DNA of 46,281 bases from Oscillospiraceae bacterium (GTDB lineage: Bacteria > Bacillota > Clostridia > Oscillospirales > Oscillospiraceae), in NCBI GenBank assembly GCA_009781695.1, contig WQVH01000011.1, positions 1-46,281 on the forward strand, in the 5' to 3' direction. The notes beneath the pieces were generated by a model, which was not told the origin of the DNA, made no database searches, and worked only from the letters and a program-made list of their open reading frames with translations. Shown here piece by piece: positions 6,501-39,356 of the stretch. Numbering within the stretch: the stretch's first letter is position 1; every line of letters starts with the position of its first letter. A program made the translations under genes and the position numbers.

Positions 6501-7274
6501 CTATTTTTCTATCCTTGCCAATAGTTCTTTTAACGCCTTTTGGTATGCATCCTCTTGAAATGTAAAAAATGAGTGACCATAAGTATCCGACTCACCCTCA
6601 TCGATATCATTCGAGCCAAAACGTATCACCGCTTCCGCCTCCCTGCCTTCGGTGAGTTTATCCGTAAAATATCGAAGCAACGGCGGATTGCGAACCAAAA
6701 TCGGCCCGGTCATATAGGTTCCCAGCAAATTTTTATATCGTATGCCCTCGGTTTTCGAAGCATCGTTGGCTCCCGGCCCAAGCGCATACGCAAACGGACG
6801 ATGAGTCGTGCCGGTTTGTCCGATACTTGCACGATTGATAAAGCCTATCAACTGATCTTGAAGAAAATCCGTAGCACCCACACAATCCCCGGTCACACGT
6901 GCGCTTCCTTGCACTGTTTCAAAATCCAATACACCCAACGCATCATGCCTTTTAGCATCAGCATCTATGATCGCATATCCAAAAATCTCGTGCGCATTTC
7001 CAGTTGCAAGTATATTCATGCCATTTTCAATACGTTCTACCAGTGTATCTTTGTATTGCACAATGTCACGTAGGCAAGCATGTACACTTCGTTCAGTACC
7101 GCTGCCTATATACAAAAAATCATAAGCCCCTATATCTATATCATCACCAACGCTTTTTTTCTCTATGATTGAGGCCAGCCCACGTGCCCTAAGCGCAAGC
7201 GTCAGCACTTCGGCATTCGCACGATCTCCGTATAGATTCATCAGGTCGTGGTAGAGGTGTAGAATCTTAATCAT
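6501..7274 (-). CDS. gatD: GatD-like subunit of lipid II isoglutaminyl synthase, glutaminase residues lost
   Basis: 257 residues, a class I glutamine amidotransferase-like protein of the MurT/GatD complex, which amidates D-Glu of lipid II in the cytoplasm. The fold is well conserved along its length (LYGDRAN, YIGSGTERS, LGVLDF, KNLLGTY...GPIL..NP). The nucleophile region, ICGGYQ in active GatD, reads TGNAHE, with Gly92 in the Cys94 position. The catalytic His of GTYLHGPIL is replaced by Thr189 (GTYMTGPIL). It should therefore be unable to release ammonia from glutamine. Start ATG overlaps the murT stop by one base (TAATG), so the two are coupled. Confidence 0.88.
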   Translation of the reverse strand: MIKILHLYHDLMNLYGDRANAEVLTLALRARGLASIIEKKSVGDDIDIGAYDFLYIGSGTERSVHACLRDIVQYKDTLVERIENGMNILATGNAHEIFGYAIIDADAKRHDALGVLDFETVQGSARVTGDCVGATDFLQDQLIGFINRASIGQTGTTHRPFAYALGPGANDASKTEGIRYKNLLGTYMTGPILVRNPPLLRYFTDKLTEGREAEAVIRFGSNDIDEGESDTYGHSFFTFQEDAYQKALKELLARIEK

Positions 7275-8704
7275 TATTTCCCAAGGCCTAGCCCTTCCAG
7301 TAGTTTCGCTTTATCTGAAAAACATGTCAGCACATAAATTGCTCCGGATGTATTTTTCTCAATATACGTCCGCAACGCATCAATGTCTGCGACATATCCT
7401 ATTTTACTTTGATCAATCCCGGTCAGTGCAAATCGCGCCGCAAGTTCACTGACATATCTTCCGGCCAGAACAATATGCTCAACCATGGCATGGTTTGCAA
7501 TCTCAAAGTCAATATCCCAAAGCCAAGACGTCTCACTCGTATAATATTTCCGGCTTATGTCATTGACCAGTATCACTAACGTGCAAGGCTTTTTCTGTCT
7601 CACCGCCCAAGTCAGCGATTGATCGTATGCCAGTGAGTTTTCGTGCTTTGAAATCAATAGCGTACCTTCACGCGCTTGGATCAAAAAATGAACCGTTCTA
7701 CCGCCTTTGAGCATATACCCATCGATGGCACTTGCCGCTGTCTGTGCGCTTACGCCTGTCGTAGAGACCGCTGCTATAGCCGCAACCACATTATATGCGC
7801 CAATGAGACCGGGCAATACCAGATGTGTTTTGATCAGCGATGTTGCGTGCAGTGACTGTGCCGCTCTCGATGTTACATTTCCGGTTATTTCCATCATGCC
7901 CGATTCATAATCCAGCTTGGTCACTTCAAAGTCCGGCACTTGTCGCTTAAATGGGCATGAATTACAGCAAAATGCGCCATAATTACCCGCTATACGAAAG
8001 TCATATTTCATTTCACTTTTACAAACAGGGCAAAATGCGCCATCATCATAGCGAGGCGTCGCTTCAATTTCAAAATGCGATGTACCAAAGTCCGCACATG
8101 CCCCGAACCATATTATATTGGCATCGAGCTTTATTGCTCCATCCCCATCATTTTCTAATGCGGCTTCTTGAACCCCCAATGTTGAGACATAAGGATCATC
8201 AGCATTGAGTACCAGCGTCGTCTCGCTTCCGGCTTCATCTACTGCCCTTTGTATGTAGTCTAAAACAAATTCATGATGTCCATTACGCGTGAGCTGATCT
8301 CTGCACAGATTGGTAATGAGCAGTGCTGAGGGCTTAATGTAGGTAAATATTTGCCTTGCATAGCGCTCGTCACACTCTAAAACAAGCGCATCCTTTTTTA
8401 CTTTTCCACTAAGCGCCGCAACACGAAGCAGCAGCGTTGCTACACCTTCAATCTGGTTCGAGCCTTCATGATTCCAGCCTACACTTTTGCCGGAGGCTTT
8501 GAGCGCATGAGCGATAAGCTCAGCCGTTGATGTCTTGCCATTGGAGCCTGTAACGGCAATGACATGTTCCGGCAGTTGTAAGTGCGCTAAAACATTCGGA
8601 TAAATTTTGAGCGCAATTTTACCGGGAAGGCTGCTGCCTTTGCCCATCAGCTTTCCTATCATGTATAAAATTTTGCATATGGCGATGGCTATAAACACTT
8701 GCAC
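7274..8704 (-). CDS. murT: MurT, Mur-ligase-like subunit of lipid II isoglutaminyl synthase
   Basis: 476 residues. It has a Mur ligase central domain with P-loop VTGSNGKTSTAE (near residue 51), then an inserted four-cysteine zinc ribbon (CPVC...CNSC, near residue 220) typical of MurT, and a C-terminal Mur ligase domain with the SETSWLWDIDFE segment. It activates the alpha-carboxylate of D-Glu in lipid II with ATP and transfers ammonia supplied by GatD. Its own motifs look intact. The active MurT family usually has an Asp just before the SW of that segment, and here it reads SETSW, which is worth checking. GTG start with AGAAGG 5 nt upstream; a strong promoter lies at 8756-8784. Confidence 0.9.
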   Translation of the reverse strand: MQVFIAIAICKILYMIGKLMGKGSSLPGKIALKIYPNVLAHLQLPEHVIAVTGSNGKTSTAELIAHALKASGKSVGWNHEGSNQIEGVATLLLRVAALSGKVKKDALVLECDERYARQIFTYIKPSALLITNLCRDQLTRNGHHEFVLDYIQRAVDEAGSETTLVLNADDPYVSTLGVQEAALENDGDGAIKLDANIIWFGACADFGTSHFEIEATPRYDDGAFCPVCKSEMKYDFRIAGNYGAFCCNSCPFKRQVPDFEVTKLDYESGMMEITGNVTSRAAQSLHATSLIKTHLVLPGLIGAYNVVAAIAAVSTTGVSAQTAASAIDGYMLKGGRTVHFLIQAREGTLLISKHENSLAYDQSLTWAVRQKKPCTLVILVNDISRKYYTSETSWLWDIDFEIANHAMVEHIVLAGRYVSELAARFALTGIDQSKIGYVADIDALRTYIEKNTSGAIYVLTCFSDKAKLLEGLGLGK

Positions 8705-8755
8705 TTGTGCCTTCTTTCGAGGTTATTTTGAGCATAGATTACTCATTTTCCGGGT

Positions 8756-8784
8756 ATTTTATCCTCTATAGGCGTAAATGTCAA
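8756..8784 (-). promoter_or_regulatory. Promoter for murT-gatD
   Basis: Minus strand TTGACA (8779-8784), a 17-base spacer and TAAAAT (8756-8761), 52 bases before the murT start. Confidence 0.8.
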
Positions 8785-8796
8785 ATAAACTCATGA

Positions 8797-10401
8797 TCAC
8801 CGCGATGGCGGCACAGGCGCTGTGAATCCGCTTGATCTTGCCACCTCTTGCGCTCTAATTGATTCCAGACTTAGCATATGACTCCTGCCGGCTTCGAAAC
8901 TATGCGCCGAAATATACCGCCGCAAATCATTGCGCAGATTTTCATCCTGTGTCCACTCATACACCTCAGTCGCAGCCAACACCCCGGCAGTTCTTGACCT
9001 CCAGACAATTTCCACATCAAATTCATGCAATGTTCCGCTCATATATCTATTGGCATTATATCTGACCACCATGGCATCCGGATTGGACAAGCATAGCGCA
9101 ACAATCATTATCGTACCTACCGCAAGAGCGCATTTAACAATTGAGAAATTCCATTTTTGCAGTGCAATCAGTGCCATGAACACAATCGCCATAAACACCA
9201 TAAATATACAGGGCAGAAGCCTCGGCATCGTGAGCCCAAATGTACTGATATACAGTGCCATTTTACTAAACGCAGTGGCTATTAGTACCAAAGTAATTGC
9301 CGCAAGTATCACATTAAATAACTTTAATAATGTCTTAGATTCCAGTCGAAACTTCTTGCTGCTTATGTTCGCAGCCGTCAGTAGCGCCAGATTAATCGCA
9401 GCGATCCAACATAACTCAAAGAACCCATGTCTTGCAAATTCGGAATAATATAACCATCCGTCCGGACGTACCCCTGTAAAAGCTGAAAAGAAGTACGGCA
9501 CTTGACTGAAAATGAATACCAAGTACAATACGCTCACTGCGCCCAACACAATGTTTATGCTCAAAGAAGGAACAATACGCATTGAGGTTACTACCTTTTC
9601 TGCTGATTCAGGCTTTATTACATCTGTTCCCTTTTTGTGTGCAGCGCCTGAGATCAATCCGTATAAATACGCTGCAACCGGAATCGCAAGCACCATGTAA
9701 AAGATAATTTCACCAAAATCTACATCATATGACATCCTAAAAAATTCTAAGACCATACCAAATCCACCGGCATCAGCCGTTTCAAGCAGCGGAATGATTA
9801 TCGCCGCCATGATCACTGCAACAACGATTCCGAAAATAACCGGCAGCACTTTTCCCCGCCGCTTCCCTCTCGCCAGTGCGGAAAAACTCACATACTGATT
9901 GAGAAAGTTCCGAAATGGGATGATCATTGTCGCCCTGATGCCATCAATCAGCAGATAATTGCCGCTCTTTGCCTTTAATGTGCTGCCCGTGGCAATAATG
10001 ACAAAATAAACTGCACTGCAAAACAAGAACAAACTCCTGATTCCGGCAAATCCGGCATTGCTCCACAGTGCATACGACATGCCGATAAGCCAAGTGACAG
10101 CCAGCCAAAAAATAGTTGCGGGGTTTATTAAGAGGACTTTTTTCTTAAAAAGATATCCCGAAACGCTCGCCAGATATATTGTGGTAAACACGGATACGCC
10201 CCAGCCGCGCCAAGAAGCAAATACCCATCTCGAAAACAGATATCCCAGCACAAATGCAATCATGGCGAAAGCAAAATCGATCATGTCCGGCTTAAAGGGA
10301 TTAACATATTGCTCCTTTACTATGTGATGATGCCATTGTGATGGGTTGACTTGTCCCGGATGTGATGGCTCATGTGTTATCTGATTATGGTCTGTATTCA
10401 T
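8797..10401 (-). CDS. DUF4173-family polytopic membrane protein
   Basis: 534 residues with about 13 hydrophobic segments after a histidine-rich N-terminal tail (residues 1-35). The segment YYSEFARHGFFELCWIAAINL and the C-terminal VVRYNANRY are typical of the DUF4153/DUF4173 family of Firmicutes. Its function is unknown but the genes are commonly next to DUF2975 and YozG-like regulators, as here. The start overlaps the 3' end of the regulator gene by 17 bases, with AAGGA 7 nt upstream, so it is the last gene of a three-gene operon. Confidence 0.8.
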   Translation of the reverse strand: MNTDHNQITHEPSHPGQVNPSQWHHHIVKEQYVNPFKPDMIDFAFAMIAFVLGYLFSRWVFASWRGWGVSVFTTIYLASVSGYLFKKKVLLINPATIFWLAVTWLIGMSYALWSNAGFAGIRSLFLFCSAVYFVIIATGSTLKAKSGNYLLIDGIRATMIIPFRNFLNQYVSFSALARGKRRGKVLPVIFGIVVAVIMAAIIIPLLETADAGGFGMVLEFFRMSYDVDFGEIIFYMVLAIPVAAYLYGLISGAAHKKGTDVIKPESAEKVVTSMRIVPSLSINIVLGAVSVLYLVFIFSQVPYFFSAFTGVRPDGWLYYSEFARHGFFELCWIAAINLALLTAANISSKKFRLESKTLLKLFNVILAAITLVLIATAFSKMALYISTFGLTMPRLLPCIFMVFMAIVFMALIALQKWNFSIVKCALAVGTIMIVALCLSNPDAMVVRYNANRYMSGTLHEFDVEIVWRSRTAGVLAATEVYEWTQDENLRNDLRRYISAHSFEAGRSHMLSLESIRAQEVARSSGFTAPVPPSR

Positions 10402-10630
10402 CGTCTATTCCTTCGCTTTCTTTAGTTTCCGGGTCGTATGCCAAAATATCTCCCGGCTGGCATTGCAATGCTTCACATATCGCTTCCAGAGTCGAAAATC
10501 TGATGGCTCTTGCTTTTCCGGTTTTTAAAATGGACAAATTCGCCTGGCTCAGCCCAATTTTCACAGCAAGCTCTCCCGATGATATCCTGCGCTTGGCCAT
10601 CATGATGTCCAGATTCACCCTTATAGACAT
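10385..10630 (-). CDS. XRE-family (YozG-like) transcriptional regulator
   Basis: About 81 residues. One Cro/C1-type helix-turn-helix fills the protein: MMAKRRISSGELAVKIGLSQANLSILKTG contains the two helices, followed by ALQCQPGDIL and an acidic tail. The DUF2975-linked members of this group repress or activate their own operon. Two in-frame ATGs lie after GGAGGCG. The second (10630) has the better spacing (8 nt), the first (10636) only 2 nt. It sits between the DUF2975 and DUF4173 genes. Confidence 0.9.
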   Translation of the reverse strand: MSIRVNLDIMMAKRRISSGELAVKIGLSQANLSILKTGKARAIRFSTLEAICEALQCQPGDILAYDPETKESEGIDDEYRP

Positions 10631-10643
10631 ACTCATCGCCTCC

Positions 10644-11093
10644 TTAAATCGTATGGTCTGCATCGTCTTGAAGCGCAACCGCTCTGGCGATAACATTCTT
10701 AACCACGCGAACCACCAGTCCCATAAATGCTGCGGCAATTCCAATAGGAAGCCAAGGCGCATAATACAAAGACGATGCCATACAAATTATGCCTCCAACA
10801 AAAAAACACCATGAAATGAAACGCAGGTAAATTATATTTTCGTTTACAAAAACTTCACCCCATGAAATCCTGCGCAACAGTAAATACATACTCATGAGAA
10901 GTGCCGCCGCCGGAATCATACCGATGTACAAGGTGGTCAAAAACAGTGCTGCTCCTGCTCTACTCGCCATTGCCGACATGCTTAATACACGCGCCACGAG
11001 TCTCGGGGAAAAAATCGCACCCAGACCCAATAGCACCATAAACAGTATGACAAATATTTTGCTGAGCACCAGCGCCTTATTACTTTCGGACAT
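10644..11093 (-). CDS. DUF2975-type membrane protein
   Basis: 149 residues with four hydrophobic segments, the last two surrounding YLRFISWCFFVGG. The size, topology and position before a YozG-like regulator fit DUF2975 membrane proteins, of unknown function. The start ATG at 11093 follows GGAGG by 7 nt; an open frame further upstream is not used. It is the first gene of the DUF2975/XRE/DUF4173 operon and is directly preceded by a promoter. Confidence 0.82.
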   Translation of the reverse strand: MSESNKALVLSKIFVILFMVLLGLGAIFSPRLVARVLSMSAMASRAGAALFLTTLYIGMIPAAALLMSMYLLLRRISWGEVFVNENIIYLRFISWCFFVGGIICMASSLYYAPWLPIGIAAAFMGLVVRVVKNVIARAVALQDDADHTI

Positions 11094-11134
11094 AATATAA
11101 CCTCCAATAGCCTCCAAAATTTTAGTATGGAGGC

Positions 11135-11163
11135 AGTTTAGCATAACAAATATCGAATTGCAA
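11135..11163 (-). promoter_or_regulatory. Promoter of the DUF2975-XRE-DUF4173 operon
   Basis: Minus strand TTGCAA (11158-11163), a 17-base spacer and extended -10 TGCTAAACT (TAAACT at 11135-11140). Upstream are repeated TATCGA/TATCGATA motifs (about 11150-11200) that could be operator sites of the encoded regulator. Confidence 0.65.
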
Positions 11164-11287
11164 TACTTTTTTATTGTTTTTCGATATATTTTTATCGATA
11201 AATGAAAATCCGTCTGTTCCGAAGCAAAAAACAAGGACCGATCATTGCTGATTAGTCCTCGTCTGACATTCAATTTGATCTAAATAT

Positions 11288-11647
11288 CTATGCGCCGATC
11301 GCCTTTTTTGCGGTTCCGACAAGCCCTGCAAATGCGCTTGGCTCATGAATGGCCATCTCAGAGAGCATCTTGCGGTTGAGGGTGATGCCCGAAAGCTTCA
11401 AGCCATACATGAAACGTGAGTAGTTCATGCCATTCGCTTTGCAAGCTGCGCTGATTCTTGTAATCCAAAGCTGACGGAAGTCTCTCTTTTTGAGCTTACG
11501 GCCTACATAGGCATAAGTCAATGATTTCATGACCGCTTGGTTCGCCATTTTAAAATGCTTAGACTTTGATCCCCAATAACCTTTAGCTAACTTTAAAACT
11601 TTTTTTCTTCTTGCGCGCGTAGTTACAGCGCGTTTTACTCTAGCCAT
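11288..11647 (-). CDS. rplT: 50S ribosomal protein L20
   Basis: 119 residues, the usual length. It is strongly basic with the typical [29 protein letters not shown]-type opening and [19 protein letters not shown] in the middle. It binds 23S rRNA early in 50S assembly and in Firmicutes also represses its own operon through the infC leader. Third gene of infC-rpmI-rplT; 12 bases separate it from rpmI. Confidence 0.98.
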
Positions 11648-11659
11648 AACACTATCCTC

Positions 11660-11857
11660 CTATTTGTACGGGATCAATTTCTTGATCGTTGCTTCGTTTG
11701 TGACATCAGCGTAACCACCCATACGGAGACCTCTTTTACGCTTGGTTGTCTTCTTATTGAGGATGTGGTTCTTATAAGCGTGTGCACGCTTGACCTTACC
11801 TGATTTAGTGAGACGGAATCTTTTCTTTGCCCCACTGTGTGTCTTTATTTTCGGCAT
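11660..11857 (-). CDS. rpmI: 50S ribosomal protein L35
   Basis: 65 residues, standard length, [14 protein letters not shown] opening, and a lysine/arginine-rich [11 protein letters not shown] centre. Component of the 50S subunit. Located between infC and rplT in the canonical order, with GGAGAG before the start. Confidence 0.98.
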
Positions 11858-11874
11858 TTTTTCTCTCCTAAATT

Positions 11875-12426
11875 CTACTTACTGCTATCAGGTTTATCCT
11901 GATTAGATTGTTTGGTTGCTTTCGGGGTAAGGAACATTGACATGTGTCTGCCCTCAAGTTTGGGGTTTTTGTCAACTGTTCCATATTCTGTACATTGTTC
12001 GGCAAAATTCTTGAGTAGCTTCTCACCAATGTCTGTGTGAGCCATTTCTCTGCCTCTGAAACGGACTGTGATCTTTAGTCGATCGCCTTCCTTGAGGAAT
12101 TTTTGCCCGTGATTCAGCTTAACGTTAAAATCGTTGATACCGATACTTGGAGACATGCGTATTTCCTTGACCTCCACAATATGCTGGTGACGACGCGCCT
12201 CTTTATCCCGCTTGGCTTGCTCAAAGCGGTACTTACCATAATCCATGATTTTACATACGGGTGGATTTGAGGTCGGAGCAATTTTTACCAAGTCAAGTTC
12301 TTTTTCGACTGCAATTTTAAATGCTTCCTGTGACGACATAATCCCAAGTTGACTACCATCCTCGTCAATCATCCGGACTTCTTTATCGGTGATATCTTCG
12401 TTAATCTGATAACTCACGCTGCTAAT
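11875..12426 (-). CDS. infC: Translation initiation factor IF-3 (ATT start)
   Basis: 183 residues. N-terminal domain starts [16 protein letters not shown], with a linker rich in Lys/Arg around residue 75 and a C-terminal domain with [10 protein letters not shown] and [11 protein letters not shown]. It binds the 30S subunit and checks start-codon pairing. The AGGAGG element lies 8 nt before an ATT codon at 12426, which is the classical autoregulatory infC start, because IF-3 discriminates against ATT. The longer open frame to 12495 runs through leader RNA and should not be annotated as coding. Confidence 0.95.
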
Positions 12427-12630
12427 AGTGAAAACACCTCCATCGAAATATACTATTGTCCAATGGGCTTGCGTCCCACCCAGAGCACTTGCCACATAAC
12501 AAAACGCGGACGCCTTTGCATCCGCGAACTCAAGACCGCCCCTTATGTTGGGCGTAATTGTCTGTCATTGACCTCGGCGCACTTAAGGTGTGGCCGGGTG
12601 AGTACGGAGGATGCCGTTCTGCTTACTACC
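12427..12630 (-). ncRNA. infC-rpmI-rplT 5' leader (L20-leader-like) with attenuator
   Basis: About 200 nt of untranslated RNA lies between the promoter and the ATT start. It contains several potential helices and a GC-rich hairpin (12504-12526, GCGGATGC/GCGTCCGC on the minus strand) followed by GTTTTGTT, an intrinsic terminator. Low-GC Gram-positives control this operon by L20 binding to such a leader and premature termination. The size, position and terminator match that scheme; the L20 binding fold itself was not modelled. Confidence 0.7.
12500..12526 (-). terminator. Attenuator hairpin in infC leader
   Basis: Minus-strand stem CGCGGATGC/GCGTCCGCG with an AAAG loop and a following GTTTTGTTA tract. 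It lies inside the leader, so it acts before the coding region. Confidence 0.75.
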
Positions 12631-12635
12631 GATGA

Positions 12636-12665
12636 ATTATAGCATCTTTGCTGATTTCCTGTCAA
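12636..12665 (-). promoter_or_regulatory. Strong promoter for infC-rpmI-rplT
   Basis: Minus strand consensus TTGACA (12660-12665), an 18-base spacer ending TGC, and consensus TATAAT (12636-12641). It is the best promoter match in the window. Confidence 0.9.
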
Positions 12666-12721
12666 CATTTTTTTTATTAATGTTTCGATATTTTTTGGTG
12701 AGCGTTACTTTACAGAGTCAC

Positions 12722-12750
12722 TTGTTTTTTGCCATGCACGGATATATAAT
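12722..12750 (+). promoter_or_regulatory. Promoter for rmuC
   Basis: TTGTTT (12722-12727), a 17-base spacer and TATAAT (12745-12750), 40 bases before the rmuC start. It is divergent from the infC promoter. Confidence 0.75.
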
Positions 12751-12790
12751 GCTTTTCAGAAAGATAACATAACAAACGGAGGATGGTTCA

Positions 12791-14173
12791 TTGGAATATA
12801 TTCTGTTGGCACTCAGTATTCTCATCTTAATTATCTCAGTTTTAGCCCTATTAAAAAAGACAAAAGAGCCGGACAGTCTCCGGATAGAAGATGCCGTACA
12901 AAAGTCCCTGACTGATCTCAGATCTTTAATTTTACAGGAAAACAGCGTACTACGCGACGAATTCGATCAAAAACTTGACCGCACACGTGCCGCATTGACC
13001 ACAATGCTTGCCGACACTAGGGAATCTCAACAAAAAGCAGTCGGAGAACTCGCCGTCAAAACAGGTGAAAATATGGATCGTCTGAGACAGGGCATTGACG
13101 AGCGGCTCAGTCAGACCAGCGAGCGTCAAAGCAAGCGCCTGTCCGAACTCATGACCTCAAGTGCCGGTAGTATGGAGAACGTCCGTAACAAGGTTGATGA
13201 AAGACTGGACAAGATTCAGACAGAGTTAGAGAAGGATCTCAGCGCTCTGATGACTTCAAACGAGAAAAAACTCGAAGAAATGCGCCTGACTGTCAACGAA
13301 AAGCTCGAAAAGACACTCGAAACCCGCCTGCAAAAGTCTTTTGAAACCGTCAGCACACAGCTTGAGAGTGTCAACAAAGGTTTGGGAGAAATGAAGACCG
13401 TTGCCGAATCCGTAGGTTCGCTCAACAAAGTCCTCTCCGGTGCCAAGACGCGCGGCATCTTAGGTGAGTTGCAGTTGGGGCAGATTATCGAAGATATGCT
13501 CCCATCACAGCTCTATGATGTTGAGATTCCAACAATTTCAGGCTCAAAAGACCGTGTTGAATACGCCATCAAGTTCCCCGGAGCCGAAGAGGGCAAATAT
13601 GTATACCTGCCAATTGATTCCAAGTTCCCTCTCGAAGACTATTATCGCCTACTGGACGGCTACGAAGCCGGAGATACGACACTTATTGAGACCTCGCGCA
13701 AGGCCTTACTTGATCGGGTCAAGATGTTTGGCCGAGATGTCAAGAAAAAATATGTTCTGCCGCCCGAAACAACAAATTTCGCCGTGATATTTCTACCAAC
13801 TGAAGGACTTTATTCAGAAATTGTGCGTGATGCCGCTTTTTTAGATGCATTACGCAAAGATGGGATCATTGTGACCGGCCCTTCAACAATTTCGGCCATG
13901 CTCAACGCACTACAGATCGGCTTCAAAACACTGCAAATACAAAAAGGTGCCGCTGAGATCGAGCGGATGCTTGGCGCTGTTAAAAAGGAGTTTGAGAGCT
14001 TTGAAGCAGTGCTGACCAAAGCCAGAGATAGGGTCAGAAAGGCCGGTGACGAACTGGATCTCCTTGCCGGGACAAGGACGCGGGCTATTAACAGAAGCCT
14101 GCGCGAAGTCCAGATTTACACGGATGACAACGCACAGGCTATTTTGGGCATCACTGAGGGGGATTTAGACTAA
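12791..14173 (+). CDS. rmuC: RmuC-type DNA recombination protein
   Basis: 460 residues. Residues 1-20 form a membrane anchor (YILLALSILILIISVLALL). Residues 30-200 are a long heptad coiled coil with repeated NMDRLRQ, VDERLDK and MTSSAGSM-like units. The RmuC nuclease-fold domain follows from about residue 215 (RGILGELQLGQIIEDMLP, VYLPIDSKFPLEDYYRL, FLPTEGLYSEI, GPSTISAMLNALQIGF). RmuC limits inversions at short repeats. The start codon is TTG, placed 8 nt after GGAGG; no ATG is available at the correct spacing. Convergent with gatB. Confidence 0.95.
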   Translation: MEYILLALSILILIISVLALLKKTKEPDSLRIEDAVQKSLTDLRSLILQENSVLRDEFDQKLDRTRAALTTMLADTRESQQKAVGELAVKTGENMDRLRQGIDERLSQTSERQSKRLSELMTSSAGSMENVRNKVDERLDKIQTELEKDLSALMTSNEKKLEEMRLTVNEKLEKTLETRLQKSFETVSTQLESVNKGLGEMKTVAESVGSLNKVLSGAKTRGILGELQLGQIIEDMLPSQLYDVEIPTISGSKDRVEYAIKFPGAEEGKYVYLPIDSKFPLEDYYRLLDGYEAGDTTLIETSRKALLDRVKMFGRDVKKKYVLPPETTNFAVIFLPTEGLYSEIVRDAAFLDALRKDGIIVTGPSTISAMLNALQIGFKTLQIQKGAAEIERMLGAVKKEFESFEAVLTKARDRVRKAGDELDLLAGTRTRAINRSLREVQIYTDDNAQAILGITEGDLD

Positions 14174-14196
14174 GACTAGGACTAGGACTAAGACTA
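14164..14196. repeat. Short hexamer tandem repeat at rmuC 3' end
   Basis: About five imperfect copies of GACTA(A/G) follow the last rmuC codons and run up to the gatB stop codon. It spans the convergent junction; no hairpin terminator is visible there. Confidence 0.7.
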
Positions 14197-15627
14197 AGCA
14201 TCAAGCTTTGCTCTAAGCAGTGCATTGACGGTCTGCGGATCGGCTTTGCCTGCTGTTTTTTTCATCACTTGCCCAACAATAAAACCAAACACTTTTTGAC
14301 TTCCAGCACGATATTCGCTCACAGATTTCTCATTTTCCTTAATGACTTCAGCGATGGCCGCCTCTAAGAATCCTGTGTCGCTCACCATGCCTAGCGCATT
14401 TTCTTTTACATAAGCCTCCGGATCGATGCCCTCTTCAAAAACTTTTACAAGGACTTTCTTTCCCACTGCGCGATTGATTGTCTTGTTATCAACCAATCCA
14501 ATCAGCTGTGCAAACTTTTTGCAGTCGATATCAATATCATCATCACCCACACCGGAAGCCTTTGTTATACTAAGCAAGTCACCCATTATCCAGTTGACCA
14601 CTTCCTTGGGCTTATTTATGACCTCCAAAACCTCATCAAATATACGACAGAGATTTAAACTCCCGGTAATAATACCACTATCATATTCAGGAAGCCCCAG
14701 CACCCCGGTCATCCTTTCAAACCGCACGTGTGCCGGTTCAGGCAAAGTGCGTTCTATACTATCGATCCACGAGGTATCAATATGTATCGGCAAAATTTCC
14801 GGATTGGGGAAATATCTGTAGTCGGCCTCCTGCGCTTTCTCTCTCATCGAAAACGACATACCTATATCATCGTCCCAACGTCTGGTCTCTTGAACAAGCT
14901 CCTCACACCCAGTCTCCAAAGCATTGATGTGCCGCTGTGATTCATATTCAATAGCTCTGGCTATGGCCTTTAACGAGTTCATATTCTTGATTTCTGTGCG
15001 CGTTCCCAGAATATCACTGCCAACTTCACGCACGGAAATATTTACATCGCAACGCATTGAGCCTTCTTGCATCTTACAATCGGACACTCCTGCAAAGCTG
15101 AGTAAAGAGCGCAGCTTATCCAAGTACTCCGTAACCTCTTCAGCAGTGCGAAAATCAGGATTTGAGACAATTTCAATCAGCGGCACAGAAGCACGATTAA
15201 AATCAACAAGCGTTGAGCGCGTTCGTGCATCATGCACCAACTTACCTGCATCTTCCTCGATATGAATTTGCTTGAGCGTAATGTGTTTGCTGCCCATTTC
15301 GGTTTCGATATCAATCCACCCATTGGTGCAAATAGGCGCAAATAGCTGGGTGACTTGATAACCTGTGGGCAAATCCGGATAGAAATAATTCTTTTTATCA
15401 AATGCAATCACCGGGCTTATCTCACAATTGGTTACCAAACCTGCAGCAATTGCCAAATCAATAGCCTTTTTATTAATGCGTACAGGCAACCCAGGCATCC
15501 CGGCACATGCCGGGCAAACATTTTCATTGGGCTCTGCACCAAATTTCGCCGAGCAAGAGCAAAACAGCTTCGATTCTGTTGACAGTTCAACATGGACTTC
15601 CAGGCCCATTACAATTTCATAATTCAT
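14194..15627 (-). CDS. gatB: Aspartyl/glutamyl-tRNA amidotransferase subunit B
   Basis: 477 residues, the usual length. It starts EIVMGLEVHVELSTESKLFC with the conserved Glu and His of the kinase site, then a zinc knuckle CSC...CPAC, and ends with the helical YqeY-like tail domain (FGFIVGQVMKKTAGKADP). It phosphorylates the side chain of Glu/Asp mischarged on tRNA-Gln/tRNA-Asn and transfers ammonia. No catalytic residue appears lost here, unlike in GatA. ATG start overlaps the gatA stop (TAATG) with GAGG before it. Last gene of gatCAB. Confidence 0.96.
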   Translation of the reverse strand: MNYEIVMGLEVHVELSTESKLFCSCSAKFGAEPNENVCPACAGMPGLPVRINKKAIDLAIAAGLVTNCEISPVIAFDKKNYFYPDLPTGYQVTQLFAPICTNGWIDIETEMGSKHITLKQIHIEEDAGKLVHDARTRSTLVDFNRASVPLIEIVSNPDFRTAEEVTEYLDKLRSLLSFAGVSDCKMQEGSMRCDVNISVREVGSDILGTRTEIKNMNSLKAIARAIEYESQRHINALETGCEELVQETRRWDDDIGMSFSMREKAQEADYRYFPNPEILPIHIDTSWIDSIERTLPEPAHVRFERMTGVLGLPEYDSGIITGSLNLCRIFDEVLEVINKPKEVVNWIMGDLLSITKASGVGDDDIDIDCKKFAQLIGLVDNKTINRAVGKKVLVKVFEEGIDPEAYVKENALGMVSDTGFLEAAIAEVIKENEKSVSEYRAGSQKVFGFIVGQVMKKTAGKADPQTVNALLRAKLDA

Positions 15628-16700
15628 TAGCTTTTCCTCAATATTGAATAAAGGGTTTCTTCACATCCGGCATTTGCTATCAGCGTCAGCGCCCCCGCAT
15701 CGCTCGGCATGGTCACTGCCGGTAACCCGCAGAGTCTCGCAAGATGTGCATTCGGGGCTAAAACTGCGTCATATTCTTGAAAATCCAGTGCATTTTTCAT
15801 GCGCCGTCTGATACGCATAGCATGATCATAGTACTTTGAATAATTGCCTTCCGAAAGCACCATTGCACCCACAATCGCTGCAAATTTCACATCAGCGCCC
15901 AACGCTTCGGTTCGGCTTTTTTTGTAAAGCGCTTCTAAATCTGAATATTTTTCAGCTCTAAATCCGAACTTGATCCCATCATATCGACTGATACTGGCGC
16001 TGAGTTCAGCGCAGCACAGAATGTGCATCACCTGCTCACATACATCAAAGTGCTCAAGCGCAATTTCGACTGTATCACATGAGTCAAAAATTGCTGAGAC
16101 GGACTGCGATACCATCTCACCCATACCGTGCGGCATACCAACCCGCAACTTTCCTGCGCCGCTAGCTCCTGTAGGCTGATCCTTGCAGAGCATCACCCCA
16201 TCTTGCTCATCAAAACCTGAAATGATAGAAAGTATGTGCGCCCCAGCTTCAATCGACTTGCACACAACCCCAATTTGATCCATTGATGGCACAGCAGATA
16301 TCAGCCCATATCTTGAAACTGAACCATAAGTTGGATGCATGTAAAAAAGATTCTGAGCGGCAGCAGCTGCACCAATAGCACCTGTATAATCATTACATAG
16401 CGCAACATCAGCCGCACCCGAAGCAATCGCCTCAACAGCCTCACAGACAATAGTATCATGCTTGTCTGTTAAAAACAGACCGCGCACGCCGAACTCGTCC
16501 ATCTTCGCACTGCCAACTATGACGATATCGGCTTTTTCGAGTTTGGTCACGGCAGTTGCAGTGATTGGTGATATAAATCCCTCAAGCATCTTCGAACCAG
16601 CCGTAACAGGCTGTCCTTTATGCATAATGGAACCATCCAGAATTACACGTACTGCACCTTTAGGACAATCTACATTATATTTATTGACAAAATGACCCAC
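15627..16700 (-). CDS. gatA: GatA-like subunit lacking the amidase active site and N-terminus
   Basis: 357 residues against about 485 in normal GatA. The N-terminal ~60 residues are absent; the GTG start is fixed by GGAGGG 5 nt upstream. The amidase-signature core aligns without gaps over the key stretch (MDEF, then PTYGSVSRYGLI and DQIG) but all three catalytic positions are changed. The Lys of AIKDNI is Asp22, the cis-Ser of GGSSGGS is replaced (around Ile84-Val85), and the nucleophile Ser of DTGGSIR is Ala108 (DYTGAIG). It cannot be a glutaminase as normally understood. It is probably kept as a structural partner of GatB/GatC, with ammonia taken directly. Confidence 0.88.
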   Translation of the reverse strand: MGHFVNKYNVDCPKGAVRVILDGSIMHKGQPVTAGSKMLEGFISPITATAVTKLEKADIVIVGSAKMDEFGVRGLFLTDKHDTIVCEAVEAIASGAADVALCNDYTGAIGAAAAAQNLFYMHPTYGSVSRYGLISAVPSMDQIGVVCKSIEAGAHILSIISGFDEQDGVMLCKDQPTGASGAGKLRVGMPHGMGEMVSQSVSAIFDSCDTVEIALEHFDVCEQVMHILCCAELSASISRYDGIKFGFRAEKYSDLEALYKKSRTEALGADVKFAAIVGAMVLSEGNYSKYYDHAMRIRRRMKNALDFQEYDAVLAPNAHLARLCGLPAVTMPSDAGALTLIANAGCEETLYSILRKS

Positions 16701-16741
16701 GTCAACCCTCCTGATCGTTGTAGTATAGTATATTGCGTATG

Positions 16742-17017
16742 CTATTCAATGGCACCCGGAACTTGAAAATATCCATCGTATTGTTCAGGTGCATTAGACA
16801 AAAGTGCGTCTCTTGAGATCATTTTCACAGCAACATCTTCACGCAAAATGCTCTGTCCGTCTACCACTGATACAAGCGGCAGCACTCCATCGGTATCTAT
16901 CTGCTCAAGAGCCGAAAAACTTTCGATTAGCGTATCAAGGCGCTTGCTCAACTGCATACGCTCATCATCAGATAACTCTAACATGACCATATGCTCGTAA
17001 TGTTTCATATCCACCAT
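16742..17017 (-). CDS. gatC: Aspartyl/glutamyl-tRNA amidotransferase subunit C
   Basis: 91 residues, typical GatC size. It has the LSDDERMQLSKRLDTLIESFSALEQIDTDGV pattern and ends with DGYFQVPGAIE, the usual FxVPxxxE close. It wraps between GatA and GatB and stabilises the complex, which is why its survival beside a dead GatA suggests that the trimer still forms. Start ATG at 17017, with AAGGA 9 nt upstream; the ORF continues upstream without a ribosome site. Confidence 0.93.
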   Translation of the reverse strand: MVDMKHYEHMVMLELSDDERMQLSKRLDTLIESFSALEQIDTDGVLPLVSVVDGQSILREDVAVKMISRDALLSNAPEQYDGYFQVPGAIE

Positions 17018-17062
17018 AATTTTATATCCTTCTATCAAAAAATCAAAATTCCTCTTCGACCG

Positions 17063-17092
17063 ATTGTAGCATGAGGCAACGCATTGCGTCAA
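17063..17092 (-). promoter_or_regulatory. Promoter for gatCAB
   Basis: Minus strand TTGACG (17087-17092), an 18-base spacer ending TGC, and TACAAT (17063-17068), located just below the terminator hairpin that follows carB-dapF. It allows gatCAB to be expressed apart from carAB. Confidence 0.75.
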
Positions 17093-17111
17093 TGTACCGC
17101 AAAAAGAAATT

Positions 17112-17132
17112 CCGGGACTTTAAAAGTCCCGG
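17112..17132 (-). terminator. Terminator after carB-dapF
   Basis: Perfect 10-bp stem CCGGGACTTT/AAAGTCCCGG followed on the minus strand by AATTTCTTTTT. It separates the carAB-dapF and gatCAB units. Confidence 0.7.
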
Positions 17133-17139
17133 CTCCTTG

Positions 17140-17166
17140 GCTGCTGGGAGTTCAACTCCCAGCAGC
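17140..17166. repeat. Perfect palindrome with GGGAGT-AACTCCC core
   Basis: Thirteen-base arms GCTGCTGGGAGTT and AACTCCCAGCAGC with one base between. No T run follows at once. Its core resembles the larger palindrome at 45938-45985. Confidence 0.75.
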
Positions 17167-17189
17167 TTAAATCAAAAAGCAATCATGTC

Positions 17190-20100
17190 CTATATTTCTA
17201 TAACACCGTCAAAACACTTCGTTGCAGTACCGGTCATGAACACATGTTCGCCATTATAACGGATGACCAAATCTCCACCCGGCATCTTGACTGTGATGTC
17301 CGTGTCCTTCTTACAAAAACCATTCTCGACCGCAGCCACCGCAGCCGCACAAGCGCAAGTGCCGCACGATTGTGTCTCTCCATTGCCCAGCTCCCACTGG
17401 CGCATGAGCAAAGAATTTTCACCCAAGACCTGAACAAACTCAACATTGACTCTTTCAGGGAAAAGCGCATCGTTTTCTATCTTAGGCCCAATCTCTGCAA
17501 GGTCAAGCATATGCACATCATCACAGAAAATAACACTGTGTGAATTGCCAATATTCAAGCAAGAAATATTATAGCTTGCATCATCAATCTGAACAGACTT
17601 ACCTATGATCTTATCGCCATCAAGTGCCACTGGAATCTGCGTAGGATTAAATGCAACCGGCCCCATATCTACCGTGATCATTGAAACAATATCACCTGTT
17701 GTGGACACCTGCATCCGACGAATAAAACCATCCGTATCAATTTGCACCTCAGGCTTGCGCACGATGCCCTCATCGTACAGATATTTTGCAACACAGCATA
17801 ATGAATTCCCGCCGACACCGCCGGGTGTTCCATCCATATTGTATATACCGATTTTTGCATCCGCTTTATCCGATGGCTCAATCAGCACAACACCATGACC
17901 ACCGATACCCAAGTGGCGGTCACTGAGTTTGATGCTCAGACTCTCAGGATCGGTAATCCTCTTATAATCTAAGCAATTGAAGTAGATATAGTCGTTTCCA
18001 CACGCTTGCATCTTCGTAAATGGAAGTTTACGTGCTCCGGAACGCATATTGTTGATATCTACAAGCTCAATGGTTGTATCCCAATACTTGCTCATAAGGC
18101 AATCGGCTATGGCATTTGCAGTATCTACAGATGTCAGACACGGAACCGAACGCTCAACAGCCTTTCTCCTCATTTTTACGCTGTCACGGTCAGGATCACG
18201 ACCTTTGGTTGAAGTCGAAATCACATAGCTGATTTTTCCGCTTTCGATCAGAGGCAAAACATTGTTTTCGCCTTCGTAAATTTTTCCGACTTCGATAATC
18301 TCCAACCCGACACTCTTTAGCTTTTCGGCAGTACCACCGGTGGCATATAGGCTAAATCCAAGCTTAGCAAACTTGTGTGCGACGTGAATCATTTGTGCTT
18401 TGTCCTGGTCTTTGACCGAGATAAAGATTCCGCCCTTTTTGTTCATTTTGTATCCCGCCGCACGCATACCTTTGTACAGCGCCTCTTCACGCGTTGAGGC
18501 AATGCCGAGCACCTCACCGGTCGATTTCATTTCCGGTCCAAGTTGCGTATCAACATTACCGAGTTTTTCAAAGGAGAACACCGGCACTTTCACCGCAACA
18601 TACGGCGGCTGCTTGGCTATACCTGTGCCATATCCCATATGGGCAAGATTTTCTCCGAGCATACAACGAGAAGCCAGTTCAATCATCGGCACGCCTGTCA
18701 CCTTGCTAATATATGGGACAGTACGAGACGAGCGCGGATTGACCTCAATAACATATAGCTCGTCTTCGCTGAGCAAATATTGAATATTGACGATTCCGCT
18801 GACCTTCAGCGCCATGGCCAAACGCTTGGTGTGGTCGATTATTTTTTTACACAGGTAATCATTGACATTCCATGCAGGATAAACCGCAATTGAGTCGCCT
18901 GAATGGACACCGGCTCGCTCAATGTGTTCCATAATACCGGGAATCAGAATGTCCGTACCATCACAAATCGCATCAACTTCAAGCTCGGTGCCTATGAGGT
19001 ATTTGTCTATAAGTATCGGGTTTTCAATGTTTTGCCTGAGAATAATTTCCATATACTCTCGGATATCTTCCTCCGAAAACGCTATGATCATATTCTGGCC
19101 GCCCAACACATATGACGGACGCATCAACACCGGATAACCAATCTGCGCAGCCGCCTTTACAGCCTCTTCCACAGTCATGACTGTTGTACCCTCAGGTCTG
19201 AGAATATTCAGGTCTTCAAGCAACGCATCAAAGCGCTCACGGTCTTCGGCTGCATCAATTGCATCAGGCTGAGTACCCAGAATCTTCATGCCTATCTTTT
19301 TGAGATACGATGTGAGCTTGATTGCAGTCTGTCCACCGAAAGCGACCACTACAGCGTATGGGTTTTCGGTCTTTATGATATTGTGTACATCCTCGCCTGT
19401 AAGCGGATCGAAATATAGCCTGTCTGCTGTGTCATAGTCAGTTGAAACGGTCTCTGGATTATTGTTTACGATAACCACATCGTATCCGGCATTTTTAAGT
19501 GCCCAAACACAGTGCACCGAGGCATAGTCAAATTCTATACCCTGACCAATACGAATCGGACCCGATCCAAATACAATTACGGTTTTCTTTTCTTCCGCTA
19601 CGCCATTTTGCATTTTAAGTTTATCATTGGCCCTCTGCTTGCCCTTGATTTCCAACGCTTCGTTTTCATGGTCAAAAGTGGAGTAAAAATACGGTGTATC
19701 TGCCTGGAACTCCGCAGCGCACGTATCTACCATCTTGTAGACCGGAGCGATCGGATTTTTTATCTTTTGTCCTGAAAGCCGCTCTATCACTTGGTCAGGC
19801 CAGCCCATACGCTTTGCCTTGTGATAGATGTCCTCATCCAGCCCACCCGCAATGAGCTTTTGCTCCATCTCTACGAGGTTTCTGAGCTTGCATAAAAACC
19901 ACTCATCAATTTGATTGATTTCATATATTTCATCGACTGTGATGCCTCGTCTGAGCGCTTCGTACACAACGAACAAACGCTCATCTGTGCTGTCGGCCAG
20001 TCTTTTCCTGATTGTCTCGGTATCCAAGAGTTCTAAGTGTCTGTCAATCAGGCAGTCTTTTCCAAGTTCAGCGCCTCTGACCGCTTTCATGATGGCTTCT

Positions 20101-21275
20101 TCAAAGGTCGTGCCTATTGCCATGACCTCGCCGGTGGCCTTCATCTGTGTGCCAAGTGTGCGTTTTGCATAGACAAATTTGTCAAATGGGAATTTAGGGA
20201 ATTTAACTACCACATAGTCCAGTGAAGGCTCAAAGCAAGCACTCGTCCTTTTGCCTGTGACTGCATTTTTGATTTCATCCAATGTGTAACCAATCGCTAC
20301 TTTTGTTGCGACTCTGGCGATTGGATATCCGGTCGCCTTTGATGCAAGCGCCGATGAGCGCGAAACTCTTGGGTTTACCTCTATTACAGCATAGTCAAAG
20401 CTGTCGGGATGCAGTGCAAGTTGTACATTACATCCACCTTCAACACCGAGTGAGCAAACGATATCGAGGCTGGCTTTGCGCAGCATTTGATATTCTCTGT
20501 CCGCAAGTGTGACTGCAGGCGCAATGACAATACTGTCGCCTGTATGAACACCCACCGGGTCAATGTTTTCCATTGAGCAAACGGCAATCGCATTATTTTG
20601 CGTATCGCGCATGATTTCAAATTCGACTTCTTTCCATCCGGCGATGGATTTTTCGACCAGAATCTGTCCAATCGGAGACATGCGGATTCCGTTTCCGGCA
20701 ATCTCAGTCAGCTCTTCGGTGTTGTGCGCAATACCTCCGCCTGTTCCGCCAAGCGTAAATGCAGGGCGAATGATGCATGGAAATCCGATCACTTCATTGA
20801 CGAATGTATGTGCATCTTCCAGCTTTGTCACTACCTTTGAGGGGATAACGGGCTGACCGATTTCAATCATCGTGTCTTTAAACAGCTGTCTGTCTTCTGC
20901 CTTGTCAATAGTCACCGGGTTTGCTCCGAGCAACTGTACATTGTGCTTTTCTAAAAATCCTGATTTTGCGAGTTGCATGGACAAAGTCAGACCGGTCTGT
21001 CCACCAAGCGTGGATAGCAGGCTATCGGGCTTTTCTTTTTTGATGATTCTTTCAAGCACCGGTATAGTGAGCGGCTCAATATATATCCTATCTGCCATTT
21101 GGTTGTCGGTCATAATCGTTGCCGGGTTAGAGTTTACCAGGACTATTTCGATGCCTTCTTCACGCAGTGCACGACAAGCTTGAGTACCGGCATAGTCAAA
21201 CTCCGCTGCTTGTCCTATGACTATGGGGCCTGAACCTATGACGACGATTTTTTTAATACTTTTATTCAGAGGCAT
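17190..21275 (-). CDS. carB: Carbamoyl-phosphate synthase large subunit fused to DapF-like domain
   Basis: 1361 residues in one uninterrupted frame. Residues 1 to about 1078 are a full CarB: two ATP-grasp synthetase halves (SGPIVIGQAAEFDYAG near 14 and SGPIRIGQGIEFDYAS near 570) and a C-terminal methylglyoxal-synthase-like regulatory domain. Residues about 1083-1361 are a diaminopimelate-epimerase fold (PFTKMQACGNDYIYFN, DRHLGIGG, GTCACAAAVA). In that domain the first catalytic Cys (MCGNG in DapF) is Gly1155, and the Asp of GIGADG is His1127; the second Cys (SCGTC, Cys1304) remains. CarB makes carbamoyl phosphate from bicarbonate, ATP and ammonia. carA overlaps its start by 14 bases. Confidence 0.93.
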   Translation of the reverse strand: MPLNKSIKKIVVIGSGPIVIGQAAEFDYAGTQACRALREEGIEIVLVNSNPATIMTDNQMADRIYIEPLTIPVLERIIKKEKPDSLLSTLGGQTGLTLSMQLAKSGFLEKHNVQLLGANPVTIDKAEDRQLFKDTMIEIGQPVIPSKVVTKLEDAHTFVNEVIGFPCIIRPAFTLGGTGGGIAHNTEELTEIAGNGIRMSPIGQILVEKSIAGWKEVEFEIMRDTQNNAIAVCSMENIDPVGVHTGDSIVIAPAVTLADREYQMLRKASLDIVCSLGVEGGCNVQLALHPDSFDYAVIEVNPRVSRSSALASKATGYPIARVATKVAIGYTLDEIKNAVTGKRTSACFEPSLDYVVVKFPKFPFDKFVYAKRTLGTQMKATGEVMAIGTTFEEAIMKAVRGAELGKDCLIDRHLELLDTETIRKRLADSTDERLFVVYEALRRGITVDEIYEINQIDEWFLCKLRNLVEMEQKLIAGGLDEDIYHKAKRMGWPDQVIERLSGQKIKNPIAPVYKMVDTCAAEFQADTPYFYSTFDHENEALEIKGKQRANDKLKMQNGVAEEKKTVIVFGSGPIRIGQGIEFDYASVHCVWALKNAGYDVVIVNNNPETVSTDYDTADRLYFDPLTGEDVHNIIKTENPYAVVVAFGGQTAIKLTSYLKKIGMKILGTQPDAIDAAEDRERFDALLEDLNILRPEGTTVMTVEEAVKAAAQIGYPVLMRPSYVLGGQNMIIAFSEEDIREYMEIILRQNIENPILIDKYLIGTELEVDAICDGTDILIPGIMEHIERAGVHSGDSIAVYPAWNVNDYLCKKIIDHTKRLAMALKVSGIVNIQYLLSEDELYVIEVNPRSSRTVPYISKVTGVPMIELASRCMLGENLAHMGYGTGIAKQPPYVAVKVPVFSFEKLGNVDTQLGPEMKSTGEVLGIASTREEALYKGMRAAGYKMNKKGGIFISVKDQDKAQMIHVAHKFAKLGFSLYATGGTAEKLKSVGLEIIEVGKIYEGENNVLPLIESGKISYVISTSTKGRDPDRDSVKMRRKAVERSVPCLTSVDTANAIADCLMSKYWDTTIELVDINNMRSGARKLPFTKMQACGNDYIYFNCLDYKRITDPESLSIKLSDRHLGIGGHGVVLIEPSDKADAKIGIYNMDGTPGGVGGNSLCCVAKYLYDEGIVRKPEVQIDTDGFIRRMQVSTTGDIVSMITVDMGPVAFNPTQIPVALDGDKIIGKSVQIDDASYNISCLNIGNSHSVIFCDDVHMLDLAEIGPKIENDALFPERVNVEFVQVLGENSLLMRQWELGNGETQSCGTCACAAAVAAVENGFCKKDTDITVKMPGGDLVIRYNGEHVFMTGTATKCFDGVIEI

Positions 21276-22332
21276 TTGGACATCCCCCTTCCATTATTGT
21301 TTTAAATTTGTTGAATATCTCCTCATCGGGGGCAAATTGTATTGAAAACGCCGGAATGTTTTTGTATTCAATACCTTCACAAGTTCCGTCGTTTACATTG
21401 ACAAAGCTCATTATGGCATTTTCCGGCAAAGAGCCCACATTGACTGCATAACCGTGATTTTGGGTGGTTACAAATGCGCGTGTGGAGCATACTTCTTTGA
21501 CTGCTTGATTTGCACCTCTATGTCCAAAATGGAGTTTTTCGGTTTTCGCTCCGTTTGCAAGCGCCAACATCTGATGTCCCAGATCCAAACCAAGCATCGG
21601 TACATTTTTGCCGCATAGTTTTTTGATCTGTTCAATAATTTGCACATTTTCTGCCGGGTCTCCCGGCCCACCTGATAGCACAATGCCATCGGGTTTCTTT
21701 TCAAGCAGCTGATCAGCGGTGGCATCAAATGGCATCACGGTCGCATGGCAACCATGTGCTTCCAGCCATTTTACCGCTTTATGTGCGCCGCCAAAATCCC
21801 AAACGGCGACATGCTTTCCTGATTTTCCATTTTCGATTTCCCATTTTCCATCGGCTACCGAAACAGCTTTTATCGCATCGGTGATTTTTGTATTACGTAA
21901 GGTTGCCCACTCATCTTTACTCAGTTCAGATTTTTTGGAAACCTTCGCATTCATAACGCCATGTTCTCGAATTTCGCGAGTCAGCTTCCGGGTATCAATG
22001 CCAAACAGACCCGGAATTTTCTTTTCGCGTAAAAAAGAGTCAAGATTTCCTTCGCTTCTAAAGTTCGAAGGCTCTTGACACCAATCTCTAACAATATACG
22101 CTTTTAAGTGTGCCGTTCCGGGGCCAAAGTCTTCGTGAATCGCTCCATAATTTCCAATCAATGGGAATGTCTGCAATAAAATCTGTCCATGATATGCAGG
22201 ATCTGATAATGCTTCCATATAACCTGTCATGCTCGTTGAGAAAACTAATTCTCCGATGGCTTCTCCATCGTATCCGAACGATTTCCCTTTGAAAACTGAA
22301 CCGTTTTCAAGTATCAAATATGCTTCGCTCAA
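21262..22332 (-). CDS. carA: Carbamoyl-phosphate synthase small subunit with lost glutaminase triad
   Basis: 356 residues from a TTG start (22332) placed 8 nt after GGAGG. The N-terminal CarA domain (GELVFSTSMTGYMEALSDPAY, PLIGNYG) and the C-terminal class I amidotransferase domain (VLSGGPGDP, FGHRGANQ, QNHGYAV) are well conserved. The nucleophile motif GICLGHQ reads GLDLGHQ (Asp250 for Cys), and the HPE motif reads APD (Ala334, Asp336). The spacing of 84 and 2 residues matches E. coli Cys269-His353-Glu355 exactly, so the positions are secure. It can still cap and gate CarB, but should not hydrolyse glutamine. First gene of the carA-carB unit. Confidence 0.92.
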   Translation of the reverse strand: MSEAYLILENGSVFKGKSFGYDGEAIGELVFSTSMTGYMEALSDPAYHGQILLQTFPLIGNYGAIHEDFGPGTAHLKAYIVRDWCQEPSNFRSEGNLDSFLREKKIPGLFGIDTRKLTREIREHGVMNAKVSKKSELSKDEWATLRNTKITDAIKAVSVADGKWEIENGKSGKHVAVWDFGGAHKAVKWLEAHGCHATVMPFDATADQLLEKKPDGIVLSGGPGDPAENVQIIEQIKKLCGKNVPMLGLDLGHQMLALANGAKTEKLHFGHRGANQAVKEVCSTRAFVTTQNHGYAVNVGSLPENAIMSFVNVNDGTCEGIEYKNIPAFSIQFAPDEEIFNKFKTIMEGGCPNASE

Positions 22333-22360
22333 AAACTTCACCTCCACAATTATTCGTCAA

Positions 22361-39215: not shown

Positions 39216-39356
39216 TTTATGACCATTCCTTTCTGACGTGCTCAGGCACAAATGACCATGCGTGACCATAAAATGTGCGCAGAGCGGTGGTTTTGCGCAA
39301 GCGAGAGTCGCAAGCACCTTCCAAATAAGCACCCAAAACGTTCTTGAGTGCTTAAC

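Follow-up and report, generated by a model that had tools for sequence, protein, structure and literature searches.

The 46,281-nucleotide contig WQVH01000011.1 of Oscillospiraceae bacterium, referred to here as the window, encodes the glutaminase subunits of three amidating enzymes: CarA of carbamoyl-phosphate synthase (CPS), GatA of the tRNA-dependent amidotransferase GatCAB, and GatD of the lipid II ligase complex MurT-GatD. All three have lost catalytic residues, and the GMP synthetase GuaA of the same genome lacks its glutaminase domain. Several core amidating synthetases in this organism and in many of its relatives probably run on free ammonia, their former glutaminases having been kept as dead partners or lost altogether. 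The loss is real, is older and wider than an earlier note on this DNA had said, and, as far as sequences can tell, fits direct use of ammonia by CPS, GatCAB, MurT, and GMP synthetase. Glutamine use is nevertheless not wholly abandoned.

The window corresponds to contig C11 in the draft genome G000 (2.2 Mb in 106 contigs, 98.4% complete, 2.2% contamination). Family searches covered 60 genomes, G000 included, from the window's genus (19 genomes), family, and order; 41 of the 60 form a high-quality subset. Losses in CarA, GatA, and GatD were read from alignments with solved structures, and the positions scored in CarA and GatA are those we take to be catalytic. The catalytic positions of GatD and MurT were taken from PMC6113224. 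Synonymous sites are saturated, and for this reason nonsynonymous (pN) and synonymous (pS) differences are given in place of the ratio of substitution rates (dN/dS).

Loss of catalytic residues in CarA, GatA, and GatD

Each of the three is encoded by an open frame on the minus strand, and the products belong to the expected Pfam families (Table 1). CarA keeps the CPSase small-chain domain and the class I glutamine amidotransferase (GATase) fold, and alignment with structures and relatives shows that its Cys-His-Glu triad has become Asp, Ala, and Asp, with GLDLGHQ in place of GICLGHQ and APD in place of HPE. Despite the lost triad, CarA scores 366 bits against the NCBIfam model of the glutamine-hydrolysing subunit (cut-off 307). 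Its partner CarB, the sole CarB detected in G000, is above its own NCBIfam cut-off.

GatA has the family and fold of the amidase signature enzymes and the expected position between gatC and gatB, and it lacks the Lys-Ser-Ser residues of that signature: KDN reads DGS (Lys to Asp), a deletion has removed the GGSSGGS loop, and DTGGS reads DYTGA (Ser to Ala). At 357 residues, compared with 471 to 485 in the matched bacterial GatA structures, it is missing more than 100 residues, and it scores 198 bits against the NCBIfam gatA model (cut-off 481). An AlphaFold2 model of moderate confidence (predicted local distance difference test score [pLDDT] 75, predicted template modeling score [pTM] 0.81) nevertheless finds GatA structures as its top Foldseek matches (3h0l, template modeling [TM] score 0.74 by query length). 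The kinase/transamidase GatB scores 605 bits against a cut-off of 338.

GatD adjoins MurT and is related to known GatD structures. Two of its motifs are altered at the catalytic residue, TICGGYQ to ATGNAHE (Cys to Gly) and YLHGP to YMTGP (His to Thr), and the MurT position equivalent to Staphylococcus aureus Asp349, which supplies the third residue of the GatD triad (PMC6113224), is Glu. The Cys94-to-Gly change is the same as that in the C94G mutant reported to be inactive (PMC6113224), and the GatD orthologue of G002 carries identical derived motifs. GatD falls below its NCBIfam cut-off, and MurT scores 195 bits against a strict cut-off of 800, yet MurT matches MurT structures end to end.

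The replacements that the earlier note had read in CarA (C/H/E to D/A/D) and GatD (C/H to G/T) agree with these alignments. Its reading of GatA (K/S/S to D/I/A) holds for the lysine and for the serine changed to alanine, whereas the second serine was lost by deletion and not replaced by isoleucine. The folds are those expected, as claimed, although GatA is shortened and has lost more than point changes would remove, and MurT, one of the partners said to keep their motifs, is altered at its Asp349 equivalent. Complete CarB, GatB, and MurT with dead glutaminases, together with a GuaA that lacks its GATase domain, would fit a predicted ammonia-dependent type of each enzyme.

Table 1. Amidation genes in the window
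Feature	Position	Strand	Basis
GatD, Cys94 to Gly, His189 to Thr (S. aureus numbering)	6501..7274	-	Pfam, structure alignment
MurT, lipid II ligase	7274..8704	-	Pfam, structure alignment
GatB, kinase/transamidase, full length	14194..15627	-	Pfam, NCBIfam
GatA, 357 aa, amidase-signature residues lost	15627..16700	-	alignment, structure prediction
GatC	16742..17092	-	Pfam GatC
CarB, complete large subunit with C-terminal DapF-like fusion	17190..21275	-	Pfam, NCBIfam
CarA, CPS small subunit, dead class I glutaminase	21262..22347	-	alignment, Pfam, NCBIfam

The fusion of CarB to a DapF-like domain recurs in G016, G001, and G012, and in G015 as a split frame. In the DapF-like domain (window positions 17190-18053) CGNG reads GGNS, so that the first of two cysteines that we take to be catalytic is gone and the second is kept; the fusions of G016, G001, G012, and G015 share this pattern. 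Elsewhere in the window, a 484-residue P-loop protein (37878-39332), considered as a possible CTP synthase, matches a CobW-type Pfam family only weakly and has no counterpart among the NCBIfam models.

Dead GatA is widespread, and dead GatA and CarA are under purifying selection

At least 20 of the 60 genomes carry a dead GatA, namely 14 of the 19 members of the window's genus and, beyond it, G019, G037, G041, G046, G047, and G059. The other five genus members comprise G004, with an intact GatA, G018, whose GatA fragment retains DTGGS, and G010, G014, and G017, with no match. The search used dead GatA as its query; it recovered intact copies in relatives at E values down to 1e-45 and gave zero matches in 22 of the 60 genomes, and a divergent intact copy could escape it. 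Within that limit, G000 yielded the dead copy only and no intact GatA. Among the best 80 of 587 named loci, whose order follows similarity to the dead query and which therefore do not give a frequency, 21 encode dead GatA, and the sources named for these 80 include the guts of termite, goat, deer, sheep, yak, and buffalo.

When 38 dead GatA sequences and 28 intact ones were placed in a tree, built by a quick method with the catalytic columns removed and including two very long rows, a single branch separated the dead from the intact sequences (Shimodaira-Hasegawa-like approximate likelihood ratio test [SH-aLRT] support 93). This topology would fit a single old loss, with the long branches leaving convergence possible. 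The earlier note had envisaged repeated loss in separate systems; three systems are indeed affected, and GuaA as well, but the loss in GatA seems to be an old, shared event and not a freshly repeated one. Dead and intact GatA occur side by side in G003, G013, and G037. The intact copies of G003, G013, G004, and G037 (L187, L188, L019, and L027) group with sequences from termite-gut Treponema and Defluviitaleaceae (L275 and L291), which suggests gene transfer. Separately, one group unites the dead GatA sequences L215-L218, whose bins carry the labels Defluviitaleaceae, Spirochaetes, and Oscillospiraceae, and reflects either transfer or mixed bins.

Of 26 aligned CarA rows, 5 are dead; G014 contributes two of these and G000, G016, and G015 one each, and the same residues are lost with other letters in G016, G015, and G014 (Cys to Gly). 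In G011 and G041 the triad of CarA is changed at Glu only.

The dead proteins are still under purifying selection. In all 10 pairs of dead GatA from five genomes, pN is 0.26-0.36 against a pS of 0.73-0.86, and it is 1.65-2.4 times the pN of GatB; these pairs are not independent, and the single pair of intact GatA sequences gives 0.76. Between G000 and G016, pN is 0.30 for GatA and 0.12 for GatB (2.5-fold) and 0.19 for CarA and 0.07 for CarB. Because pN lies well below pS and yet above the pN of the partner, constraint on dead GatA and CarA is relaxed but not lost, in keeping with the view of the earlier note that these open frames encode selected proteins.

Several other glutamine-dependent enzymes are undetected or eroded in G000 and many relatives

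The one GuaA in G000 lacks the GATase domain (Pfam, E values up to 1) and still passes the NCBIfam cut-off for the glutamine-hydrolysing enzyme. Family searches of G000 found no PyrG, although all 14 control genomes gave a match, and no Amt. No GlmS- or AsnB-type glutaminase was detected either, G000 having a single class II (GATase_6) match and no frame of GlmS length.

These absences recur among the relatives. PyrG was undetected in 34 of the 60 genomes, including 21 of the 41 of high quality, and Amt was present in 18, every one of which also has PyrG (PyrG+/Amt+, 18; PyrG+/Amt-, 8; PyrG-/Amt+, 0; PyrG-/Amt-, 34). A subset with a single genome for each of 23 other families gave counts of 10, 1, 0, and 12 in the same order (Fisher P = 9.6e-6, a value that ignores descent), the 12 including one genome that is 55% complete. 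Among the high-quality genomes the median number of class I GATase matches is 4.5 in the 20 with PyrG and 2 in the 21 without it, PyrG itself counting as one. The class I matches of G002 and G006 were rejected as amidotransferases, since their sequences resemble those of peptidase C26-type proteins and begin with a signal-like N terminus.

GuaA was found in 52 of the 60 genomes and shows intermediate states. In ten genomes (G010, G013, G018, G028, G029, G039, G049, G050, G054, and G058) GuaA occurs at two places, as a full-length and as a short form, the short form having been read as sequence in G010, G013, G018, G049, and G058 and judged by frame length in the other five; in G049 and G058 the two copies adjoin. 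Seven GuaA proteins (those of G020, G027, G034, G038, G052, and G056 and the second copy of G058) retain at the N terminus a shortened remnant that lacks the Cys motif, and all three of these eroded proteins that were scanned still match part of the GATase model, the one of G020 below the cut-off. PurL has lost its glutaminase Cys in 9 of 42 aligned sequences (G002, G005, G006, G008, G009, G013, G014, G020, and G041), seven of which have also lost the His, while the Cys of PurF is present in 12 of 13 N termini inspected, the thirteenth not reaching the position.

Where glutamine-dependent forms occur, they can be clustered. A single 20-kb stretch of G013 carries Amt, glutamine synthetase, glutamate synthase parts, PurB, PurA, an intact CarA, CarB, a full GuaA, and PyrG (Amt, glutamine synthetase, GuaA, and PyrG assigned by family search, the remaining names by eye). 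A cluster in G021, named mostly by eye, has two glutamine synthetases, glutamate synthase parts, an AsnB-like protein, and PyrG, and in G003 an intact GatCAB, MurT-GatD, and PurL lie beside glutamine synthetase, with GlmS and GlnA farther along the same contig. This arrangement suggests that glutamine-dependent enzymes are retained where ammonia is scarce. Three members of the window's genus are metagenome-assembled genomes (MAGs) from termite guts: G001 (Th196) and G002 and G016 (both Emb289), the hosts being Termes hospes and Embiratermes neotenicus. Both hosts are listed as humus feeders (PMC7024585), and ammonia in termite guts has been reported at 69-900 µmol per g dry weight (PMC4675541). 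By analogy with these relatives, the lineage of the window may likewise occupy an ammonia-rich niche.

Taken together, these observations suggest a model in which ammonia from an ammonia-rich gut would enter the cell and pass straight to the synthetase sites. CarB, GatB, MurT, and the ATP-pyrophosphatase part of GuaA would still activate their substrates, CarA, GatA, and GatD would be retained as catalytically dead structural partners, and the glutaminase domain of GuaA would have been dispensed with. The glutamine-dependent versions clustered with glutamine synthetase and glutamate synthase, and in one case with Amt, would then form a likely low-ammonia module. From this module, Amt, PyrG, and full-length GuaA appear to be missing in G000.

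Residual glutamine use and alternative explanations

Several results weigh against a complete switch to ammonia. The two PF00117 (class I GATase) matches in G000 are the dead CarA of the window and a second, intact CarA (CarA2) on contig C54 (L033 8421-9485). CarA2 is 69% identical to a CarA of G005 (L205 5035-6132, contig C20) and 34% identical to the CarA of the window. In both genomes it ends a cluster of a nonribosomal peptide synthetase (NRPS) gene, two ATP-binding cassette (ABC) transporter genes, and an Sfp-like gene, without an adjoining CarB, and the five genes are 64-85% identical between G000 and G005; among the CarA sequences compared, which do not amount to a search of all genomes, only these two copies are of the NRPS-linked type. 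Contamination was considered as the origin of CarA2 and rejected: by tetranucleotide z-scores C54 correlates with the window at 0.81, more strongly than any other of the 10 stretches of G000 that were compared, and the cluster recurs in G005. CarA2 thus belongs to the lineage and probably to secondary metabolism. It could still pair with the single CarB, and no other result speaks as strongly against a complete switch. Carbamoyl phosphate is needed, since arginine genes including an ornithine carbamoyltransferase-like gene, read by eye, are present on contig C18 of G000.

In addition, the single GATase_6 match in G000 reads as PurF with its Cys in place, the one PurL has its glutaminase Cys, His, and Glu, and there is one glutamine synthetase of 704 residues, presumably of type III, that is above the Pfam cut-off and below those of NCBIfam. 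Total loss of glutamine use was therefore rejected. Among the relatives, eight PyrG-bearing genomes lack Amt, G042 has a full-length GuaA although PyrG was undetected, G011 and G016 (96% and 92% complete) gave no GuaA match of any length, and G013 fits imperfectly, as it has the glutamine cluster yet also a dead GatA and a dead PurL. The lineage-wide switch proposed in the earlier note is partly supported: the GATase-less GuaA and the lack of PyrG, Amt, GlmS, and AsnB matches speak for it, and intact PurF, PurL, and CarA2 together with the retained glutamine synthetase speak against a complete one. Its suggestion to look for ammonium transporters and glutamine synthetase gave no Amt and one synthetase, and of the second, intact gene set that it named as counterevidence, carA was found whereas the only gatA match is dead.

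These enzymes also raise the question of whether ammonia is released from glutamine in trans, by CarA2 or an unlinked glutaminase, and feeds the synthetases. G000 does have an intact CarA2 and a glutamine synthetase, and with one CarB detected the two may pair. We consider this explanation unlikely, however, because CarA2 sits in an NRPS-ABC-Sfp cluster conserved in G005 and because it leaves the missing Amt, PyrG, and GlmS matches unexplained; moreover, we know of no channel that leads from CarA2 to GatB, MurT, or GuaA. It is slightly less likely still that dead GatA, CarA, and GatD are pseudoenzymes with another task, such as regulation or assembly, and that intact copies are unassembled or were missed. 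G000 is after all a draft in which a second gatD was not sought, and G003 and G013 do hold dead and intact GatA together, but the query that found intact GatA in relatives matched none in G000, and many related genomes show these absences too, a recurrence that random gaps would not produce. Decay of nonfunctional genes, assembly error, or mixed bins are very improbable, even though G000 is a MAG with some contamination and the 69%-complete G015 has both a dead and an intact CarA. All frames are open, pN is far below pS for CarA and GatA, and the composition of C54 fits G000; assembly error in particular is unlikely because of the other-letter CarA losses, the GatD motifs shared with G002, and the occurrence of dead GatA across so many genomes. 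Direct use of free ammonia therefore remains the explanation that we favor.

Conclusions

Mammalian CPS1 keeps a small-subunit domain whose glutaminase is dead and uses ammonia as its donor. Its structures are among the matches of the CarA of the window, which likewise retains a dead glutaminase domain; CPS1, however, is a single animal enzyme, a fusion activated by N-acetylglutamate, whereas several bacterial systems are affected at once in the window lineage. Single-domain (type N) NadE synthetases are a second parallel, as they lack a glutaminase and use free ammonia in vivo (PMC3376133). They are judged ancestral (PMC3376133), while the loss described here looks derived, and Table 1 of that 2012 survey, covering 490-800 genomes for each, gives no glutaminase-less case for pyrG, guaA, purL, carAB, or gatABC. 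GMP synthetase ATPPase units are reported to accept external ammonia in vitro, and in the archaeal two-subunit enzyme the ATPPase unit is likewise a separate protein (PMC10526850); there a separate GATase subunit is kept, whereas none was detected in G000 and relatives have eroded fused intermediates. A literature search that covered few subscription papers found no earlier description of this ammonia switch.

These findings have a practical consequence for annotation, since a dead CarA and a GATase-less GuaA both pass NCBIfam cut-offs for glutamine-hydrolysing enzymes. They also bear on the near-textbook rule that glutamine is the amide donor in vivo: several exceptions occur here together, and their graded intermediates allow the stepwise loss of ammonia channelling to be followed. 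More tentatively, a large and possibly order-wide set of gut Clostridia might carry out most of its amide chemistry with free ammonia, keep glutamine use as a detachable module, and make cytidine triphosphate (CTP) with an ammonia-dependent enzyme other than PyrG; cytidine salvage or a novel CTP synthase would explain the absence of PyrG. Enzyme architecture in these bacteria would then be tied to the ammonia supply of the gut, and the pattern points to a missing CTP synthase.

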